Below are positions 3,821 through 17,063 of a stretch of 27,506 nucleotides of DNA, piece after piece. This DNA is from a virus. The stretch covers positions 1 to 27,506 of IMG/VR virus record IMGVR_UViG_3300011115_000894. The stretch is one strand, 5' to 3'. The notes below the pieces were generated by a model, which saw nothing but the letters and a program-made list of their open reading frames with translations, had not been told where the DNA came from and did not search any database. Every line of letters begins with the position of its first letter. Position 1 is the stretch's first letter. Made by a program: the position numbers and the translations under genes.

Positions 3821-4309
3821 TCAATCCTTTTTAAATAAAATCATAATAGATTCAAGAAAGAATCCATAAGTAGGTTCTTTTGGTTTAGTTTTAAGTTGCA
3901 TTTTGGCTTCTTTTAAAGATCTACTACCTTTATATAGGTTGCAATCTTTACATGCAGTTACTAAATTGGTCCACGAAGATGATCCACCTTTACTTCGGGG
4001 TGTAATATGGTCAATTGTTGCAGTTTCCTTGTATAAATCCCTTCCACAATACTGACAACAATAAGAGTCTCTACGAAAGATATTTTGTCTAGATGGGGCT
4101 AATTTTTTATGTGGTAATTTAACGTAATATTTAAGAATTAAAACTTTAGGAATTTTAATAACATTCTTAACTAATTGAACTTCATGAAAATTTTCTGAAT
4201 CGTAATCCACATAAACTTTATTTTTCAAAATAAGCTTGTATGCCTTATTAAGATTGATAACATTTATAGGAGATTGGTCGAAGTTGAGCAGGAGAACCTG
4301 TTTCGACAT
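3821..4309 (-). CDS. HNH endonuclease
   Basis: 162 aa from ATG 4309. The C-terminal half has the classic HNH pattern: RRDSYCCQYCGRDL (zinc cysteines C85, C88), TIDHITPRSKGG (Asp100, His101), WTNLVTAC (Asn115) and CKDCN with KGSR. The N-terminal 70 residues (VLLLNFDQSPINVINL) are the conserved strand-rich leader seen with this HNH class in bacteria and phages. It may be a free-standing homing-type nuclease or a packaging nuclease; the sequence does not decide. A late box on the minus strand (4320-4327) would start transcription 5 bases before the ATG. The longer frame to 4351 runs through the opposing promoter and is rejected. Confidence 0.88.
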   Translation of the reverse strand: MSKQVLLLNFDQSPINVINLNKAYKLILKNKVYVDYDSENFHEVQLVKNVIKIPKVLILKYYVKLPHKKLAPSRQNIFRRDSYCCQYCGRDLYKETATIDHITPRSKGGSSSWTNLVTACKDCNLYKGSRSLKEAKMQLKTKPKEPTYGFFLESIMILFKKD

Positions 4310-4319
4310 ACGCTTTAAG

Positions 4320-4327
4320 TATTTAGA
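4320..4327 (-). promoter_or_regulatory. Late box on minus strand, HNH gene
   Basis: TCTAAATA read on the minus strand. The predicted start is 4314, five bases before ATG 4309. It lies back to back with the plus-strand box at 4332-4339, with 4 bases between them. Confidence 0.6.
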
Positions 4328-4331
4328 AAAT

Positions 4332-4339
4332 TCTAAATA
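4332..4339 (+). promoter_or_regulatory. T4-type late box, 580-aa gene
   Basis: TCTAAATA. The predicted start is 4345, five bases before ATG 4350. There is no Shine-Dalgarno between box and ATG. Confidence 0.75.
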
Positions 4340-4349
4340 TTTGATACCC

Positions 4350-6092
4350 ATGGATAATAAAAATAATAGAGCCTTTTACTGGGAAGTCAAGGATTTTTTA
4401 AATAAAAAGTCCGAAACCTTCGAACCAAAGAAAAATTCATTAAAAGATAGCATTAATGGTATTTTGAACGAAAAGAATACAATTCGTCAAAATTCTTTTA
4501 ATCCTAATACCAATACTACTAAAGATGTTAGTAAATATTTACATACATTGATGGGAGAAGAAAATAAAGCTCTTCCTAGTAGCATTGCACATGCTAAAAA
4601 TAGTCTTGTCAACCCTTTTGCACTGAATGAAGTTAATCAACCATCAGTTGGTAGCAATACTTCCACAAGACCTAGTTGGAAAGACCAGAATCCAGAAAAA
4701 TACGCTGAGAATGTACAAAAACGTCAGGATCAAGAAACTGCACGTAAAACTCAACGTGAAACAAATGTACGACGAACTAAAGAAGATGAAGCATCTGCAT
4801 TTAATAAATCCAGACCAGAAGATTCTATGTTGCAAGGACCAACTGAAAGTGGTGGTAATGTTGGCGATCAAGCAAAAGCAGCACAGGGACTTCAAATGGG
4901 TTTAAATGGTAATCCAAATTTACCATCCGATACTCCAGAAAATAGAGAAAAATTAAAAACTTTTAGAGCTGATAAAGATAGAGAAACTCGTTCTTCGGCA
5001 ATTGCTGCTACTGTAGAAAGACTATCTGGAAAAGATCCTGCTTCTCTTACTGCAAAAGAAAATGCCGAACTTCAAATGGCAAATGTTTATATGAAAGGTG
5101 GAAGTCTTTCAAAGGGTGATTCCGGTTTAGAATCTAAAGTAAGAGAAAAACTTTCTACAAGTATGGCACCCAAAGTTGGTTCCGCATCCGCAGCACGAGA
5201 TCAAGCATATCAAGGACCAACACAAACTGGTGGAAATGTTGCTGATGATCCATTAAAATATAGTGTAGATAGTGCGATGCAACGAACTCTTGGAAGAAGT
5301 ACTGAAAATCTTGCTCAATCCACTCAAAATGCTGTTGGTCGTGAAGCTGAAATTAAAAAGCAAGAAGATGCAGCTGTTTCAGATAAGATCAAACAAGATC
5401 GCTATGACAAAATGCAAGGACAAAGAATTCAAGGTACAAACATGACTTATGCTGACTATAAGTCAAAGTTTGGCAAAGATTATAATGCATTTGACAAAGG
5501 CGAAAGTTCCATGCTTAATAAAGTAGCTGGTGCGGGTCGTTATGGATCAGAAGAAGCACGTCAAGGAGCAATATCTTCTTACCAATTCAATCAAACCTAT
5601 GATAAGCAAAACACTGCTATGGCACAAAAGGGTGGCGAACTTACAAGACAGGTTGATAAATCACAAGTTGAACTAGACCGTTTCAAGAACATGACTCCTG
5701 CAGAACGTCAAGCTGCTGCTCGTCAAGAAGTTTCTAATATTCAAGCACAACCTGGATTTGTTGCAGGTGTTGCAAAAAATATGGCATCTGGTATTAATCA
5801 AGCTCAACAAACTGCAAATAAAGCTAAAGAAAATGCCAAATTTGCTCAAAGAGCTGCACAACCAGGAAAAGTTGGAGTTCCAAATTTAATTTCTAAACCA
5901 GCAAATGTAAACGCACCAAATCTATTAGCAAGAGATAATAGAATGCCACTTACACCAGATTTGCTCAGTAGAGTAGCACAACCACAAAAGACTCCACCAT
6001 ATGGTGGAGTTGGGTCAGTAAATTATAATAAAGCTCCAAGTCTAATTTCACGACCAGGACAAACTCCTCCAGATTCATTACGAAGACGCTAA
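4350..6092 (+). CDS. Hydrophilic late protein with GPTxxGGNV repeats, probable virion/internal protein
   Basis: 580 aa from ATG 4350 (MDNKNNRAFYWEVKDFL). No enzyme family recognised. It is rich in Gln, Ala, Lys and Asn and lacks membrane segments, with long stretches likely disordered or helical. MLQGPTESGGNVG at residues 160-172 returns as AYQGPTQTGGNVA at 286-298 and again in the next gene. The C-terminus has degenerate repeats (PNLISKP, PNLLARD, PDLLSRV, PSLISRP) and ends basic (RRR). The start is set by the late box, because extending upstream would overlap the divergent HNH gene and promoter. Late expression plus lack of enzymatic features suggests a structural, scaffold or internal head protein; this is inference. 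Confidence 0.7.
   Translation: MDNKNNRAFYWEVKDFLNKKSETFEPKKNSLKDSINGILNEKNTIRQNSFNPNTNTTKDVSKYLHTLMGEENKALPSSIAHAKNSLVNPFALNEVNQPSVGSNTSTRPSWKDQNPEKYAENVQKRQDQETARKTQRETNVRRTKEDEASAFNKSRPEDSMLQGPTESGGNVGDQAKAAQGLQMGLNGNPNLPSDTPENREKLKTFRADKDRETRSSAIAATVERLSGKDPASLTAKENAELQMANVYMKGGSLSKGDSGLESKVREKLSTSMAPKVGSASAARDQAYQGPTQTGGNVADDPLKYSVDSAMQRTLGRSTENLAQSTQNAVGREAEIKKQEDAAVSDKIKQDRYDKMQGQRIQGTNMTYADYKSKFGKDYNAFDKGESSMLNKVAGAGRYGSEEARQGAISSYQFNQTYDKQNTAMAQKGGELTRQVDKSQVELDRFKNMTPAERQAAARQEVSNIQAQPGFVAGVAKNMASGINQAQQTANKAKENAKFAQRAAQPGKVGVPNLISKPANVNAPNLLARDNRMPLTPDLLSRVAQPQKTPPYGGVGSVNYNKAPSLISRPGQTPPDSLRRR
5991..6010. repeat. Perfect 20-bp palindrome
   Basis: A 10-base half (ACTCCACCAT) is followed at once by its exact reverse complement. 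It lies inside the C-terminal coding part of the 580-aa gene, coding TPPYGGVG. It may be chance from Pro/Gly codons or a protein-binding site. Confidence 0.5.
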
Positions 6093-6112: not shown

Positions 6113-7825
6113 ATGCATAAATCAAACCAATTAGTAGAATCGCTTCTTTTTGAAAGGTATAATAATAAATTATTACTTGAAAAAGAAGATTTGGGATCTG
6201 GTGATCCTGGGGAGAAAACTGTTCTTGCTCCTAAAAAAGTTTCTGCTAGTAGAAAAAAGTTTGAAGATGCAGTTGCCGCAGAACAAGCAAGAGCTACAGA
6301 AGAAAATAAAAAATTAGGTCTTCCAGCTACGAATGAACATCAAGCAAGATTAGCAGTATTGTATAAAACTCCGGGAATGGCAGCGGAACTTTCTCCAAAA
6401 GAATATGAAAAGCTTGTAGGAAGCACATCAAAACCTCTTTATATTGAAAAAGTAGGAAGTGGTTTTGCTCATTCTTCTGAAGGAGCAAAACAAGAAGATG
6501 ATATGCTCCAAGGACCTACCGAAGGTGGTGGTAATGTTGGAGGTAAAGAAGCAAGACCTTCTAAAATGATTACTCCTGCTCATTTATCTTATGATAATAA
6601 AGGGTCTATAGAAAGAACGGCTCAGGCAGCATGGGAACACATTACTGATACAGATAAAGTTAGACAAGATGTTGCTCTTGGTATTTTAACTGGTGGTCTT
6701 GGTAGAGCTATTCCTGGACTTGCAGGAATGGTTGCCAACAAAGCTGGTCAATTAGCTGCTAGTAAAGCGGCTGGAGTCGCAGCTCAGGCAGTAACCCAAA
6801 CTGCGGCAAAAGCAGCCACCAATGTTGCTCTAGCCGGTACAATGGGATATATGACAGCTAAAGATATCGAAGCTGGGGCAAAAGAAGAAGAAAAAGGAAA
6901 AGCTGTAGGATCTTTAGAAAAAACTACTGGTAGTTTTATTGGAAGTTTACCAGGATTTTCGGTTGGCGCAAAAATTACAGGTTCAAAATTACCGGGTGAA
7001 ACTGCTGGACGTGTTAGAGCTGGATATGAAGCCCCTCTTCCCCCTACACCACAACCGGTATCTTCCAAGCGTACTGGACAATACACGGAATTTGTATCCC
7101 CAAAATTTAAAAAATGGATAGGAGCCGCTGCTCTTGCTGCTCAATTAGCAGCAGGTACTCCAGAAGCATCAAAACCTTTTTCAGTAGAACCAGCTTCTAC
7201 TAAAATATCATTTGTAGAACCTTCTAGTTCTGGTGCAAGAGTTTCAGAAATTGCAAATAAATTAACTGGTGAAACTGCTCGTACAGCAGAAGCTCCAACA
7301 AAAACTGCACCAGCTGAAACTAAGGTAATTTCTTCAGCTGAAACCAAGGCTACTAAAGAAGCTTCTACCAGTGGTGGATCTAAATCTGCTCAAGATGCTG
7401 TATCAAAAGGTAAAGAAGTTCCCGAAGTTAAAGCTACTCAACAAGCTCCAGCTCAAATTAAACAAGAAGCTCCATCACAAGTTAAACAAGAAGCTCCAGC
7501 AAAAGTCAAAGATGAAGCTCCGGCTCAAGTTAAACAAGAAGCTCCAGCAAAAGTCAAAGATGAAACTCCAGCAAAAGTTGAAGATAAGATTACAGATAAA
7601 AATAATACTTCAGAAAAAGTAAAAGACGAAGTAACATCTAAAGCTAAAACAAAAAAACCATTTGAAGAAATAGAAAATGCTAAAATTCCATTAAATGGTG
7701 GTGGAGTTGGTAAAAAAGTAGCAGATTTGGGATTATTTAAAGCCACCGGATCTGATGTTCAGGGTCAAGTTGGATTAAGCCGTTCACAATTGGGAAGATA
7801 TTCTACCATTTTACAACAACGGTGA
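6113..7825 (+). CDS. Late protein with [LI]xE-rich leader, Ala/Gly hydrophobic core and KxEAPA repeats
   Basis: 570 aa. AAGGA lies about 9 bases before the ATG. The N-terminus (NQLVESLLFERY, then KLLLEKED) holds several [LI]xE sites of the kind cut by T4-type prohead protease. MLQGPTEGGGNVGG at about 131-144 repeats a motif of the upstream gene. Residues 185-320 are Ala/Gly-rich with amphipathic to hydrophobic helices (LGILTGGLGRAIPGLAGM, then VALAGTMGYM), and a second short hydrophobic helix (WIGAAALAAQLAAG) lies near 340. An 8-residue repeat follows at 445-492. The combination (packaging-type leader, membrane-active helices, charged repeats) suggests an internal protein that meets a membrane during injection. 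No family recognised. Confidence 0.65.
   Translation: MHKSNQLVESLLFERYNNKLLLEKEDLGSGDPGEKTVLAPKKVSASRKKFEDAVAAEQARATEENKKLGLPATNEHQARLAVLYKTPGMAAELSPKEYEKLVGSTSKPLYIEKVGSGFAHSSEGAKQEDDMLQGPTEGGGNVGGKEARPSKMITPAHLSYDNKGSIERTAQAAWEHITDTDKVRQDVALGILTGGLGRAIPGLAGMVANKAGQLAASKAAGVAAQAVTQTAAKAATNVALAGTMGYMTAKDIEAGAKEEEKGKAVGSLEKTTGSFIGSLPGFSVGAKITGSKLPGETAGRVRAGYEAPLPPTPQPVSSKRTGQYTEFVSPKFKKWIGAAALAAQLAAGTPEASKPFSVEPASTKISFVEPSSSGARVSEIANKLTGETARTAEAPTKTAPAETKVISSAETKATKEASTSGGSKSAQDAVSKGKEVPEVKATQQAPAQIKQEAPSQVKQEAPAKVKDEAPAQVKQEAPAKVKDETPAKVEDKITDKNNTSEKVKDEVTSKAKTKKPFEEIENAKIPLNGGGVGKKVADLGLFKATGSDVQGQVGLSRSQLGRYSTILQQR
7445..7588 (+). repeat. Six tandem 24-bp repeats coding (A/T)PAxVKxE
   Basis: Six consecutive 24-base units code APAQIKQE, APSQVKQE, APAKVKDE, APAQVKQE, APAKVKDE and TPAKVEDK. 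Units 3 and 5 are near identical at DNA level, so copy number could change by slippage or recombination. Confidence 0.9.
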
Positions 7826-9098: not shown

Positions 9099-9105
9099 TT
9101 TGAAG

Positions 9106-11472
9106 ATGAACTTCAAACACCTTTTAACTAAATTATTTGAGGCCCGTACTATTTCCGAAGATTATACCGGTACTGGGGAAGCGGTAGCTAAAGAGCAAGC
9201 AAAAGCAAGCTCGAGTGACCAAAAATCAAAAGATGCTGCAAGAAAACGTGTTGAACGTGCACGACAGATTCCACGTGATAGAAAATCTAAAGATGAATTG
9301 GTACGTGAGATTATTGCGGTTAAAACCAAAAGTGGTACAATCCAATTAATTTTTAAAGATTCATATAATAAAGATACTCATACCAAATTGAATGACCAGG
9401 AATTAAGTATTCCTGAAGCAAATCAAATTACCTCCGATCCTAAATTTGAACAAACAAGAGCTTCTGTGCTTTTGTTTGGAGATACTAAAGAAAAGAAAAC
9501 AGAAAAGAAAGAACCAAAAGAAAAAGGTTCAGAAGCCAAACAAGAAGCGGAACCTGCACAGGCAGAAACTCCTGCACAACAAAAACCTAGAAAACTAACA
9601 CCTCAACAAATGACGGATGCTTTGAGTCAAATGGGTCCAGAACAGCTTGCTATGGTTCCCATGAATGTTAGACAGGATTATTTTAAATCCATTAGAAATC
9701 CTCCGACTGCAGTTGATTTTGACCATATGTCTTATGAAGACTTGTCTGTTAAATATGGTATTAATCCTGGATCCGATCTTCCATATAATCAACAAGTTTT
9801 AAATGCATTGGTATTTCTTGCAAAAACAAAGGCAGGTGCAAGCGATCAAGAGATATCTACTTACACAGCATTATCTCCAGCCGCGATGGAATTTACTCGT
9901 GCGGCATTTGGTCAAGCTAGAAAGATTCTTAGTCAGATTGGCGATCAATGTATTCAAGATTTAGTTTCAAATATTGAACAAGGATCCAAATCTGTTAACA
10001 GTGAAGGTTCCAGTGATATGCAATGCGGAACTTACCGATTTAAAATTGCTGCTGGTGGTGAGATGAGTGTATCTACCACAGCTTTTGATCAAAAGAATAA
10101 AAATTTTAAAGGGTATTTGGCATCTGCATTAACATCAGCATTACAACAAGAATTTGCACAACCCTCTCAAGAAAATACATCTAAGGTACTTGAAAATATT
10201 CGAGAGCTTTCTAAAGGCTTTTCATCTACACTTATTTCCAATGATTCTTTACAAGCAATTCTTTCAAATCCAAAATATATGGAAGAATTACAAAATACAC
10301 CAGTTATTGATGATAATGGTGTAGAACAAGGAACCGTACTTGATAATAATGGAAACCTAAATCCAATTGCAAGTCTAGACAATTATCAAACTAAAATTTC
10401 TGAATTTAAGAAAGATATTGTAAAATCTGTAAAGAAGTCTACAAACAATCCTTTTTCTCAAATTGTTAGTGATAAGTTATTAAAATTAATGTTACGTGGT
10501 GATGGTATTACGGCACCAGAAATTGCTCCAACACATGTTATAACTGTAAACGGTGTCTTTCCAATGAATGACGCTTATTTTAATGAGATTTCAAAGACTG
10601 CAGCATTAGAAGCCAAACCTTCAAAAGATCTAACTGCTGTTGATAATATTGCAAACTATAAGCCAGCAGCAGCGGAAAAGATGAGTAAGTTTAAAGCTAT
10701 CATCGAAGCTAGAATTCCTAAACAACCAAAACTAAACTTAAAAGATCTTGTCGTTCAAAAAGATCAAATTGATGTAAGTGGTGTACTTGCTAATGCTGTT
10801 GCAAATTCATTTGATTTTGATTTTAATGCAAGTTTGTTACCAGGATTTGCACCAAAAGATATCAATGTAGTTGAATTCAACTATGTAACTATAAATGGAA
10901 AAACTACTAAAATTCCTGTTGTAAGAAATGAAAAAATAGCTACAAAACTTTTAGGTGAAGGTTGTTTCATTGTAAATGATATATTGATTGAATCTCTTAC
11001 TAATGATTTTGTTTTAGAATCATTATTAAAAATAAATTTAATCAATGAAACAGAAGCAGAACTTCTTGAAAGTGGAATTGTTAATTTACTAGAAGCTTCT
11101 GATGCAACCAACATTAATTTACTTACAATATATGATAATATAAATGCTAGAATTGATGAAGACTCAGAACTCTTTCATGATTTATTAACTCTCTTAAATG
11201 ATGAATATCAAAGAGATTATAAACTAGAATATAGAAATTATCATGGTAAATCCAAACAACGTAAACAACGAGCTGCAAGAACTCGTGCAAGAGAATTGAT
11301 GAAGAAGAAAGGTATTGTTAAAAAGGGAGATGGAAAAGATATCGACCATCGCAAACCATTACGTTCGGGTGGATCTAACAGTATAAATAATTTACGTGTT
11401 CGTAAAAAATCGAACAATCGTGCAGATAATGGTCATAAAAAAGGTGAAAAACAAAATAAGGACTGGAAATGA
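9106..11472 (+). CDS. Large late protein with capsid-targeting-like leader and C-terminal HNH-like domain
   Basis: 788 aa from ATG 9106; the in-frame TTG 9100 is rejected because it lies before the predicted transcription start. The leader MNFKHLLTKLFEA offers an LFE|A site, matching the T4 prohead protease rule (L/I-x-E before a small residue). Residues about 125-165 are a charged Lys/Glu/Pro/Gln linker. The middle is unrecognised and mostly helical. The last 70 residues switch to a very basic region with paired RKQRAARTRARELMKKKG, then GDGKDIDHRKPLRSGG and SINNLRVRKKSNNR. This is an HNH-like pattern (DH, N, N/R) of the kind often fused to phage proteins; zinc cysteines are absent. An internal head protein carrying a nuclease tail is the favoured reading. 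The next gene overlaps by 4 bases (ATGA). Confidence 0.75.
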   Translation: MNFKHLLTKLFEARTISEDYTGTGEAVAKEQAKASSSDQKSKDAARKRVERARQIPRDRKSKDELVREIIAVKTKSGTIQLIFKDSYNKDTHTKLNDQELSIPEANQITSDPKFEQTRASVLLFGDTKEKKTEKKEPKEKGSEAKQEAEPAQAETPAQQKPRKLTPQQMTDALSQMGPEQLAMVPMNVRQDYFKSIRNPPTAVDFDHMSYEDLSVKYGINPGSDLPYNQQVLNALVFLAKTKAGASDQEISTYTALSPAAMEFTRAAFGQARKILSQIGDQCIQDLVSNIEQGSKSVNSEGSSDMQCGTYRFKIAAGGEMSVSTTAFDQKNKNFKGYLASALTSALQQEFAQPSQENTSKVLENIRELSKGFSSTLISNDSLQAILSNPKYMEELQNTPVIDDNGVEQGTVLDNNGNLNPIASLDNYQTKISEFKKDIVKSVKKSTNNPFSQIVSDKLLKLMLRGDGITAPEIAPTHVITVNGVFPMNDAYFNEISKTAALEAKPSKDLTAVDNIANYKPAAAEKMSKFKAIIEARIPKQPKLNLKDLVVQKDQIDVSGVLANAVANSFDFDFNASLLPGFAPKDINVVEFNYVTINGKTTKIPVVRNEKIATKLLGEGCFIVNDILIESLTNDFVLESLLKINLINETEAELLESGIVNLLEASDATNINLLTIYDNINARIDEDSELFHDLLTLLNDEYQRDYKLEYRNYHGKSKQRKQRAARTRARELMKKKGIVKKGDGKDIDHRKPLRSGGSNSINNLRVRKKSNNRADNGHKKGEKQNKDWK

Positions 11473-16457: not shown

Positions 16458-16487
16458 ATAACAAATCCTCGTTTTCACGAGGATTTG
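16458..16487 (-). terminator. Terminator of the tmRNA/tRNA unit
   Basis: A perfect 10-bp stem CAAATCCTCG (16462-16471) / CGAGGATTTG (16478-16487) with a 6-base loop. On the minus strand a short T-rich tail follows. It closes the 44-aa gene, tRNA-Tyr, tmRNA unit. Confidence 0.75.
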
Positions 16488-16523
16488 GGTCGATTCAGAT
16501 GCGGGAGACCAAACCCCACTGCT

Positions 16524-16568
16524 TTAAGCAGCCATTGCTAATTGGTTAGCAATCATGATTTGCAACTG
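16524..16568 (-). other. tmRNA tag reading frame (candidate)
   Basis: The frame ending at TAA 16524-16526 reads LQIMIANQLAMAA if resumed at TTG 16568, 11 bases after a five-pair PK1 second stem ending about 16578. The end LAMAA resembles tmRNA tags (LAA/VAA). A competing resume codon GCA at 16563-16561 with the upstream AGTT context gives ANHDC then stop. The exact resume point is not settled. Confidence 0.55.
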
Positions 16569-16646
16569 TTTATTTACGACACTTGTTACCCGTGTCGGGT
16601 ATCTCCTTCTTCATTACTCACCGCCAATCGAAACCTGGTCAGGCCC

Positions 16647-16743
16647 TTAAGAGCCCTATGACATGCCATAGGGCGGTACCCCGCTGCTACGAGGATTTGG
16701 CTCGGCTCACCATAAGACTGCAGGATCTTATGAATATGCCTAA
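16647..16743 (-). ncRNA. tmRNA intervening (excised) segment
   Basis: 97 bases between the acceptor 3' end and the coding-piece 5' end. It holds two perfect hairpins: CATAAGA/TCTTATG (7 bp) and GCCCTATG/CATAGGGC (8 bp), the latter ending shortly before the GGGCCTG 5' end. In permuted tmRNAs this segment is removed by RNase processing. Confidence 0.75.
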
Positions 16744-16800
16744 TGGACCTGTCGGGAATCGAACCCGAGTGTTGGACAATTTTCAATCCGATATCAACAA
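16744..16800 (-). ncRNA. tmRNA acceptor piece
   Basis: It carries the T-arm and the 3' acceptor strand CAGGTCC with discriminator A at 16744. No CCA is encoded. Taken alone it looks like half a tRNA with no 5' partner; the partner is 98 bases downstream at 16646. TTGTCCAAC before the T-arm can pair with ATTGG of the coding piece (helix 2 start). The 5' end is not defined. Confidence 0.85.
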
Positions 16801-16806
16801 TACCAA

Positions 16807-16889
16807 TGCAAGAGGAGGGATTCGAACCTTCGTAGAAATTAATCAGCAGATTTACAGTCTGCCCTCGTTGTCCGCTTGAGTACTCTTGC
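16807..16889 (-). tRNA. tRNA-Tyr (GTA)
   Basis: The acceptor GCAAGAG/CTCTTGC is perfect. The anticodon stem GCAGA/TCTGC encloses CTGTAAA (anticodon GTA). A long variable arm, as in bacterial class II tRNAs, and T-arm AGGTTCGAATCCCT are present. 83 nt with discriminator A; CCA is not encoded. Its 3' end is only a few bases from the tmRNA acceptor piece, so the two are likely one precursor. Confidence 0.95.
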
Positions 16890-16894
16890 GTAAT

Positions 16895-17029
16895 TTATTT
16901 AGGTGATTTTTTAGACTTTTTCTTTACTGGCTTCTTTTTAAAAATTGCTTCATAATTTTTACCATATTGTTCTAAATTTACGTGTCTAGGAGAACTTCCT
17001 TTACCTGCACCATGTGAACCGTAAGTCAT
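16895..17029 (-). CDS. Small basic protein, 44 aa
   Basis: ATG 17029 to TAA 16897-16895. The N-terminus is MTYGSHGAGKGSSPRHVN, then a short central stretch (LEQYGKNYEAIF), then a very basic tail rich in Lys and Pro. The predicted +1 of a strong sigma-70 promoter is exactly the A of the ATG, with no Shine-Dalgarno, so the message is leaderless. Promoter quality and the late box overlapping its stop support a real gene. N-terminal motifs of the type SHGxGKGSxPR occur in small phage proteins, function unknown. Confidence 0.65.
   Translation of the reverse strand: MTYGSHGAGKGSSPRHVNLEQYGKNYEAIFKKKPVKKKSKKSPK
16896..16903 (-). promoter_or_regulatory. Late box in front of tRNA-Tyr
   Basis: CCTAAATA on the minus strand. 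The predicted start is 16890, one base before the tRNA 5' end (16889). The TAA of the 44-aa gene (16897-16895) overlaps the box. Confidence 0.65.
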
Positions 17030-17035
17030 AACAGG

Positions 17036-17063
17036 AGTATAGCATATAGAACTTTTGTGTCAA
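17036..17063 (-). promoter_or_regulatory. Sigma-70-type promoter, 44-aa gene / tRNA-Tyr / tmRNA
   Basis: -35 TTGACA (17063-17058), 16-base spacer, -10 TATACT (17041-17036), then six bases to ATG 17029. It probably drives early transcription of the small gene, tRNA-Tyr and tmRNA to the terminator at 16458-16487. Confidence 0.8.

Follow-up and report, generated by a model that had tools for sequence, protein, structure and literature searches.

Two-piece tmRNAs have been found in 53 phage genomes, mostly aquatic and including that of the T4-like phage Melnitz (2022; PMC9004378), and a curated database holds 79 phage tmRNAs (PMC11915505). A permuted tmRNA in a phage is not a first. The gene described here, found in 27,506 nucleotides of viral DNA (positions 1 to 27,506 of IMG/VR record IMGVR_UViG_3300011115_000894, the window), represents a separate, phage-only lineage. 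Melnitz EXVC044M (MZ577097; PMC9004378) is comparable in that a T4-like (Kyanoviridae) aquatic phage carries a two-piece permuted tmRNA. Its tmRNA is alpha-type (106.7 bits with alpha_tmRNA, over the cut-off), whereas that of the window is closer to beta-type. Melnitz encodes CCA and a 14-aa tag, ANDNYVPVDYALAA; the window gene encodes no CCA and an 8-aa tag. A glutamine riboswitch follows the tmRNA in Melnitz, whose intervening segment (IVS) is unrelated to that of the window; neither riboswitch model (RF01739, RF01704) matched the window region or the IVS of its relatives.

The betaproteobacterial tmRNA (RF01850) shares with the window gene the order of its parts, the resume codon, aligned with GCc AAc, and the ...AMAA end of the tag. 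The beta tag is 10 aa long (consensus ANDEHFAMAA, read from the beta_tmRNA model), in contrast to 8 aa, without CCA, in the window. In the beta-like contigs L042 and L157 the IVS extends the acceptor stem, which the window IVS no longer does. A further phage-borne tmRNA, of the DS6A type, has no tag and is reported to inhibit the host tmRNA on expression in E. coli (cited in PMC11915505); the tag of the window gene is complete.

The window gene lies at 16804-16488 on the minus strand and runs from an acceptor piece through a 97-nt IVS to a coding piece (Table 1). The initial annotation had proposed a permuted two-piece tmRNA, and this identification holds: Rfam model RF04321 (tmRNA_permuted, gathering cut-off 47 bits) matches 16524-16804 (-) with 71.4 bits (E 4e-12), ARAGORN also calls a permuted tmRNA at the locus, and about 60 distinct relatives keep the structure. 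All the parts of a complete gene are present (acceptor stem, G3·U70, A73, T-arm, PK1, tag, PK2 and terminator), and the T-arm/acceptor pattern of the window had 0 matches in 100 shuffles. The IVS boundaries first given, 16743-16647, are exact; the acceptor piece had been started at 16800 and in fact begins at 16804, with the P2 strand. The coding piece closes with a second pseudoknot, reaching about 16488, and the terminator follows at 16487-16462.

Table 1. Features of the tmRNA unit and their coordinates in the window.
Feature	Position	Strand	Remarks
Sigma-70-like promoter TTGACA-16-TATACT	17036..17063	-	11/12 consensus matches; suggestive, class not above chance
44-aa basic, Lys-rich ORF, MTYGSHGAGKGSS...KKSPK	16895..17029	-	First gene of the unit; conserved in relatives
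tRNA-Tyr(GUA)	16807..16889	-	No encoded CCA; 2 nt before tmRNA; ARAGORN, Rfam tRNA 48.8 bits
Acceptor piece	16744..16804	-	P2 strand GGUAU; T-arm 16768-16752; CAGGUCC 16751-16745; A73 16744; RF04321
IVS, 97 nt, predicted to be removed	16647..16743	-	Covariation in 40 sequences
IVS helices	GGC/GCC closing; hairpin b 16732-16711; c 16694-16679; d 16674-16653	-	Covariation
IVS loops b and c	CUGC 16723-16720; GCAG 16687-16684	-	Complementary
Acceptor 5' strand GGGCCUG	16640..16646	-	G1 at 16646; G3 of G3·U70 pair
PK1, CGACAC/GUGUCG + GUAAC/GUUGC	16562..16597	-	Paired changes in relatives
Tag reading frame	16524..16550	-	Resume codon GCU 16550-16548; tag ANQLAMAA (8 aa); stop UAA 16526-16524
PK2, GUGGG/CCCGC + GGUC/GACC	16488..16519	-	Second-stem complementarity in relatives
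Intrinsic terminator, CAAATCCTCGTGAAAACGAGGATTTG + TTATTT	16462..16487	-	11-bp stem, T-rich tail

Relatives were collected from IMG/VR by two routes. With the 790-aa window protein as query, 23 related contigs were found, 14 of them with an RF04321 match above the cut-off, and a pattern for the PK1 region matched 64 contigs. Removal of duplicates left 63 tmRNA sequences, 60 of them complete. The two strands of the acceptor stem, GGGCCUG and CAGGUCC, pair at 7/7 positions including G3·U70, so that the 7-bp pairing of the halves claimed earlier, with the alanine determinants G3·U70 and A73, is present in full. G3·U70, G1-C72 and A73 occur in 60/60 complete relatives; ten distinct stems are represented, with compensating changes among them, and pairing is 7/7 in 59 relatives and 6/7 in the remaining one. 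Encoded CCA is absent from the window gene and from all 60.

The covariance models alpha_tmRNA, beta_tmRNA and cyano_tmRNA had been put forward for checking the gene; tmRNA_permuted recognizes it, and these three all fall below their cut-offs (RF01849, 50 bits; RF01850, 84; RF01851, 70, respectively). The window scores 54 bits with the beta and 24 with the cyano model and has no alpha_tmRNA match. In nine records tested the best scores were 56 bits for beta_tmRNA, 27.6 for alpha_tmRNA and 35.9 for cyano_tmRNA, again below the cut-offs. The family is divergent, since every lineage-specific model scores below its cut-off. The beta model was the top one in 8/9 records, the exception being G010 (cyano 34.7 versus beta 32.8 bits). 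The family is nearest the betaproteobacterial form, as a matter of resemblance and not of membership.

The H-type pseudoknot expected ahead of the tag was found (PK1). In six relatives it takes the form CGUUAC/GGAACG + GCAAC/GUUGC, with two stem pairs altered on both sides (A-U to U-A and C-G to U-A). An alternative RNAalifold helix around the tag, CAG-UUGC/GCAUCUG, was dropped in favor of the PK1 pairing GUAAC/GUUGC. The second stem of PK2 is highly variable among relatives yet complementary, for example CCCGGUUUU/AAAACCGGG. A resume codon, GCC or GCU, lies 10-11 nt past PK1 in 60/60 sequences (11 nt in the window), the spacing of E. coli tmRNA, and that of the window coincides with the resume site of beta_tmRNA. 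Among the 60 relatives the tag occurs in 21 DNA variants, which specify 12 different peptides; each is 8 aa long and in frame, and the stop is UAA (45) or UGA (15). This frame is kept despite 1-nt indels immediately upstream and the two types of stop codon. ARAGORN proposed the tag VVNKQLQIMIANQLAMAA and Rfam the resume codon GCA; both were rejected on the frame evidence, because the GCA frame misses the conserved tag end in the 24/60 members with an 11-nt gap, the window included, and in many of those 24 it hits an early stop.

Tags elsewhere in the family include AAPMRMAA, ANELAMAA and ANYMAMAA, and the Ala-Ala end is retained. This variety, in a tag shorter than the 10-aa betaproteobacterial consensus, would fit a phage tmRNA that acts mainly as a competitor, displacing the host tmRNA so that a different, shorter tag alters which proteins are degraded in infection. 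The end that marks proteins for degradation is intact, however, so that no escape from degradation is evident, and a competitor of this kind is possible but on the unlikely side. The preferred reading is that the gene very probably encodes a working permuted tmRNA for host-assisted ribosome rescue in infection; we infer that it would be expressed, processed, charged, active in tagging and of benefit to the phage.

On this preferred reading, the tRNA-Tyr/tmRNA transcript would be cut at A73 and G1 by host enzymes (RNase Z and RNase P are expected), which would release the 97-nt IVS and leave the acceptor and coding pieces joined through the acceptor stem and P2. CCA would come from the CCA-adding enzyme of the host, whose AlaRS would charge the tmRNA by way of G3·U70 and A73. 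No SmpB was found in any of 24 records, most of them fragments, so host SmpB would serve in delivering the charged tmRNA to stalled ribosomes. Translation would resume at GCU and append ANQLAMAA, whose Ala-Ala end should mark the product for proteases of the ClpXP type. The phage would probably gain in that ribosomes and tagging capacity stay available during destruction of host mRNA. The proposal of the initial annotation, that the phage governs ribosome rescue while host mRNA is being degraded, is plausible.

The distribution of the gene bears on whether it is kept for use. The tmRNA is flanked by the 15581 gene and the 44-aa ORF in the window and ten relatives (in one of the ten, L005, the contig stops before the ORF). 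L012, L020 and L023 have both neighbor genes and no tmRNA between them, and carry the tmRNA elsewhere in the same record; in L022 it is likewise elsewhere in the record. Some fragments have no tmRNA at the syntenic site. Relocation in at least three relatives with an empty syntenic site argues for selection. Since tRNA-like genes are often acquired by phages, and tmRNA genes are integration sites (PMC9004378), the gene could be a passenger captured from a host and kept without function. Compensating changes, conservation of the frame and retention with relocation over about 60 divergent contigs speak against this, as does the failure to find a cellular copy: one exact-motif scan of 84,980 cellular species genomes with the PK1-region motif, which divergent copies could escape, found no member of the family. 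The four exact matches in those genomes, considered as a possible cellular source, were all unrelated sequences and none a tmRNA. A functionless passenger is highly improbable. Comparison of the sequences establishes structure, conserved determinants, tag frame and retention in the lineage.

Blast searches of 50,697 phage records with the tmRNA region and with a hand-made family consensus of 165 nt brought up nothing beyond tRNA-Tyr matches and chance hits, and in this collection no isolated phage has the lineage. A phage-only two-piece tmRNA lineage is kept in many aquatic phages of the T4-like kind, also where the gene has relocated, and it makes the question of why lytic phages carry a ribosome-rescue RNA addressable by comparison.

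The IVS is itself a folded element. Both perfect spacer hairpins described earlier, CATAAGA/TCTTATG and GCCCTATG/CATAGGGC, are present, together with a third, CCUCG/CGGGG. The folding energy of the 96-nt part 16648-16743 is -35.2 kcal/mol (z -2.5). Across 40 sequences 93.4% of cells pair, double-sided pair changes number 10 against 4.5±1.2 in shuffles, and the covariation score is 0.164 against 0.081±0.006 in shuffles and at most 0.050 in slid controls, the safer of the two since shuffling leaves relatedness in place. In the closing helix, for example, the window has C-G exchanged for G-C. Loop and linker bases are near-invariant among relatives. Loop b (CUGCAA in the family) stands opposite loop c ((U/A)GCAG), and one relative alters both, to CUGUAA/UUACAG; there is moderate evidence for a loop-loop contact, resting mainly on invariance and this single double change.

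The length of the IVS falls into classes in the 60 complete genes: 5-6 nt (12), 71-73 nt (6), 95-99 nt (36) and 165-173 nt (6). The closing helix and hairpins b and c are common to the 71-99-nt classes, with hairpin d in the longer. Where the IVS is only 5-6 nt the two predicted cut sites would be nearly adjacent. Contigs with an IVS of this length are L159, L173, L174, L175, L186, L190, L200, L210, L212, L213, L217 and L038. A different folded IVS of about 165-173 nt (GGTTAGCGGCGTGGTAGGGACACGCAG...CCTTCCTAACC) is near-identical in seven contigs (L167, L168, L178, L208, L211, L218 and L235), between A73 and G1; Rfam offers no credible match for this class of about 166 nt.

The 12 relatives that keep just 5-6 nt show the longer IVS to be dispensable, and an IVS of about 100 nt occurs in other permuted tmRNA genes too, as would be expected of an unselected spacer with hairpins by coincidence. 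That explanation is quite unlikely in view of covariation well over both shuffled and slid controls and of the near-invariant loop and linker bases. The IVS is itself conserved as a folded RNA, with a probable role in folding or processing of the precursor. Identity with a glutamine riboswitch, a ribozyme or another known RNA was set aside, with no credible Rfam match, as was an existence outside tmRNA genes: 62/62 motif occurrences found lie inside them. Once freed, the IVS might act alone as a compact functional phage RNA of 71-97 nt, or it might be a sensor gating tmRNA maturation, although either role seems rather unlikely. The covarying helices, the apparent loop-loop contact and the exchangeability of the IVS are new here, and its conservation and exchangeability suggest that the removed segment of a permuted tmRNA can have a function of its own.

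The gene is the last of a minus-strand unit in which a promoter-like site is followed by the 44-aa ORF, tRNA-Tyr, the permuted tmRNA and the terminator. Control by phage promoters, as once proposed, has one good sigma-70-like site (17063-17036) in its favor; promoter-like matches overall are at chance (7 versus 5.0±2.4). The 44-aa ORF, which lies upstream of the tmRNA site, is conserved in relatives at 54-90% over 26-30 aa. Among 61 relatives, 23 tRNA-Tyr genes were located in the 500 nt upstream. The neighboring tRNA-Tyr and the T4-like nature of the phage, both part of the first reading, also stand: the tRNA is immediately adjacent, and the T4 markers are found in a collinear 126-kb relative, G019, and not in the window. 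The window fragment has a class II ribonucleotide reductase gene and no T4 marker gene, and a reading from the window alone as not T4-like was overturned by G019, which encodes gp23, gp20, a T4-type terminase, a T4-type capsid scaffold and a UvsW-type helicase, and whose family B DNA polymerase is closest to those of T4-like cyanophages.

Several minor observations accompany these results. Proteins of 618, 570 and 790 aa are encoded on the plus strand of the window at 4236-6092, 6113-7825 and 9100-11472; they have no Pfam match and either no PHROG match or one of unknown function only, and those of 618 and 790 aa have no match in the 50,697 phage records. In L167 (about 5080-5165), L178 and L168 a tRNA-sized GCGTAG...CTACGC element lies between tRNA-Gly and tRNA-Tyr. 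It combines a long hairpin with a T-arm-like GGGTGCAAGCCCC, is called by neither ARAGORN nor Rfam, and is possibly an unusual or degenerate tRNA. A short T-arm pattern brought up many more viral contigs (L039-L158) in which ARAGORN calls tmRNAs, some of the standard and some of the permuted form. Their tags are very varied (e.g., AKTDTPAANNIVAFTRIPTANARQLATV), which suggests that phage tmRNAs are diverse.
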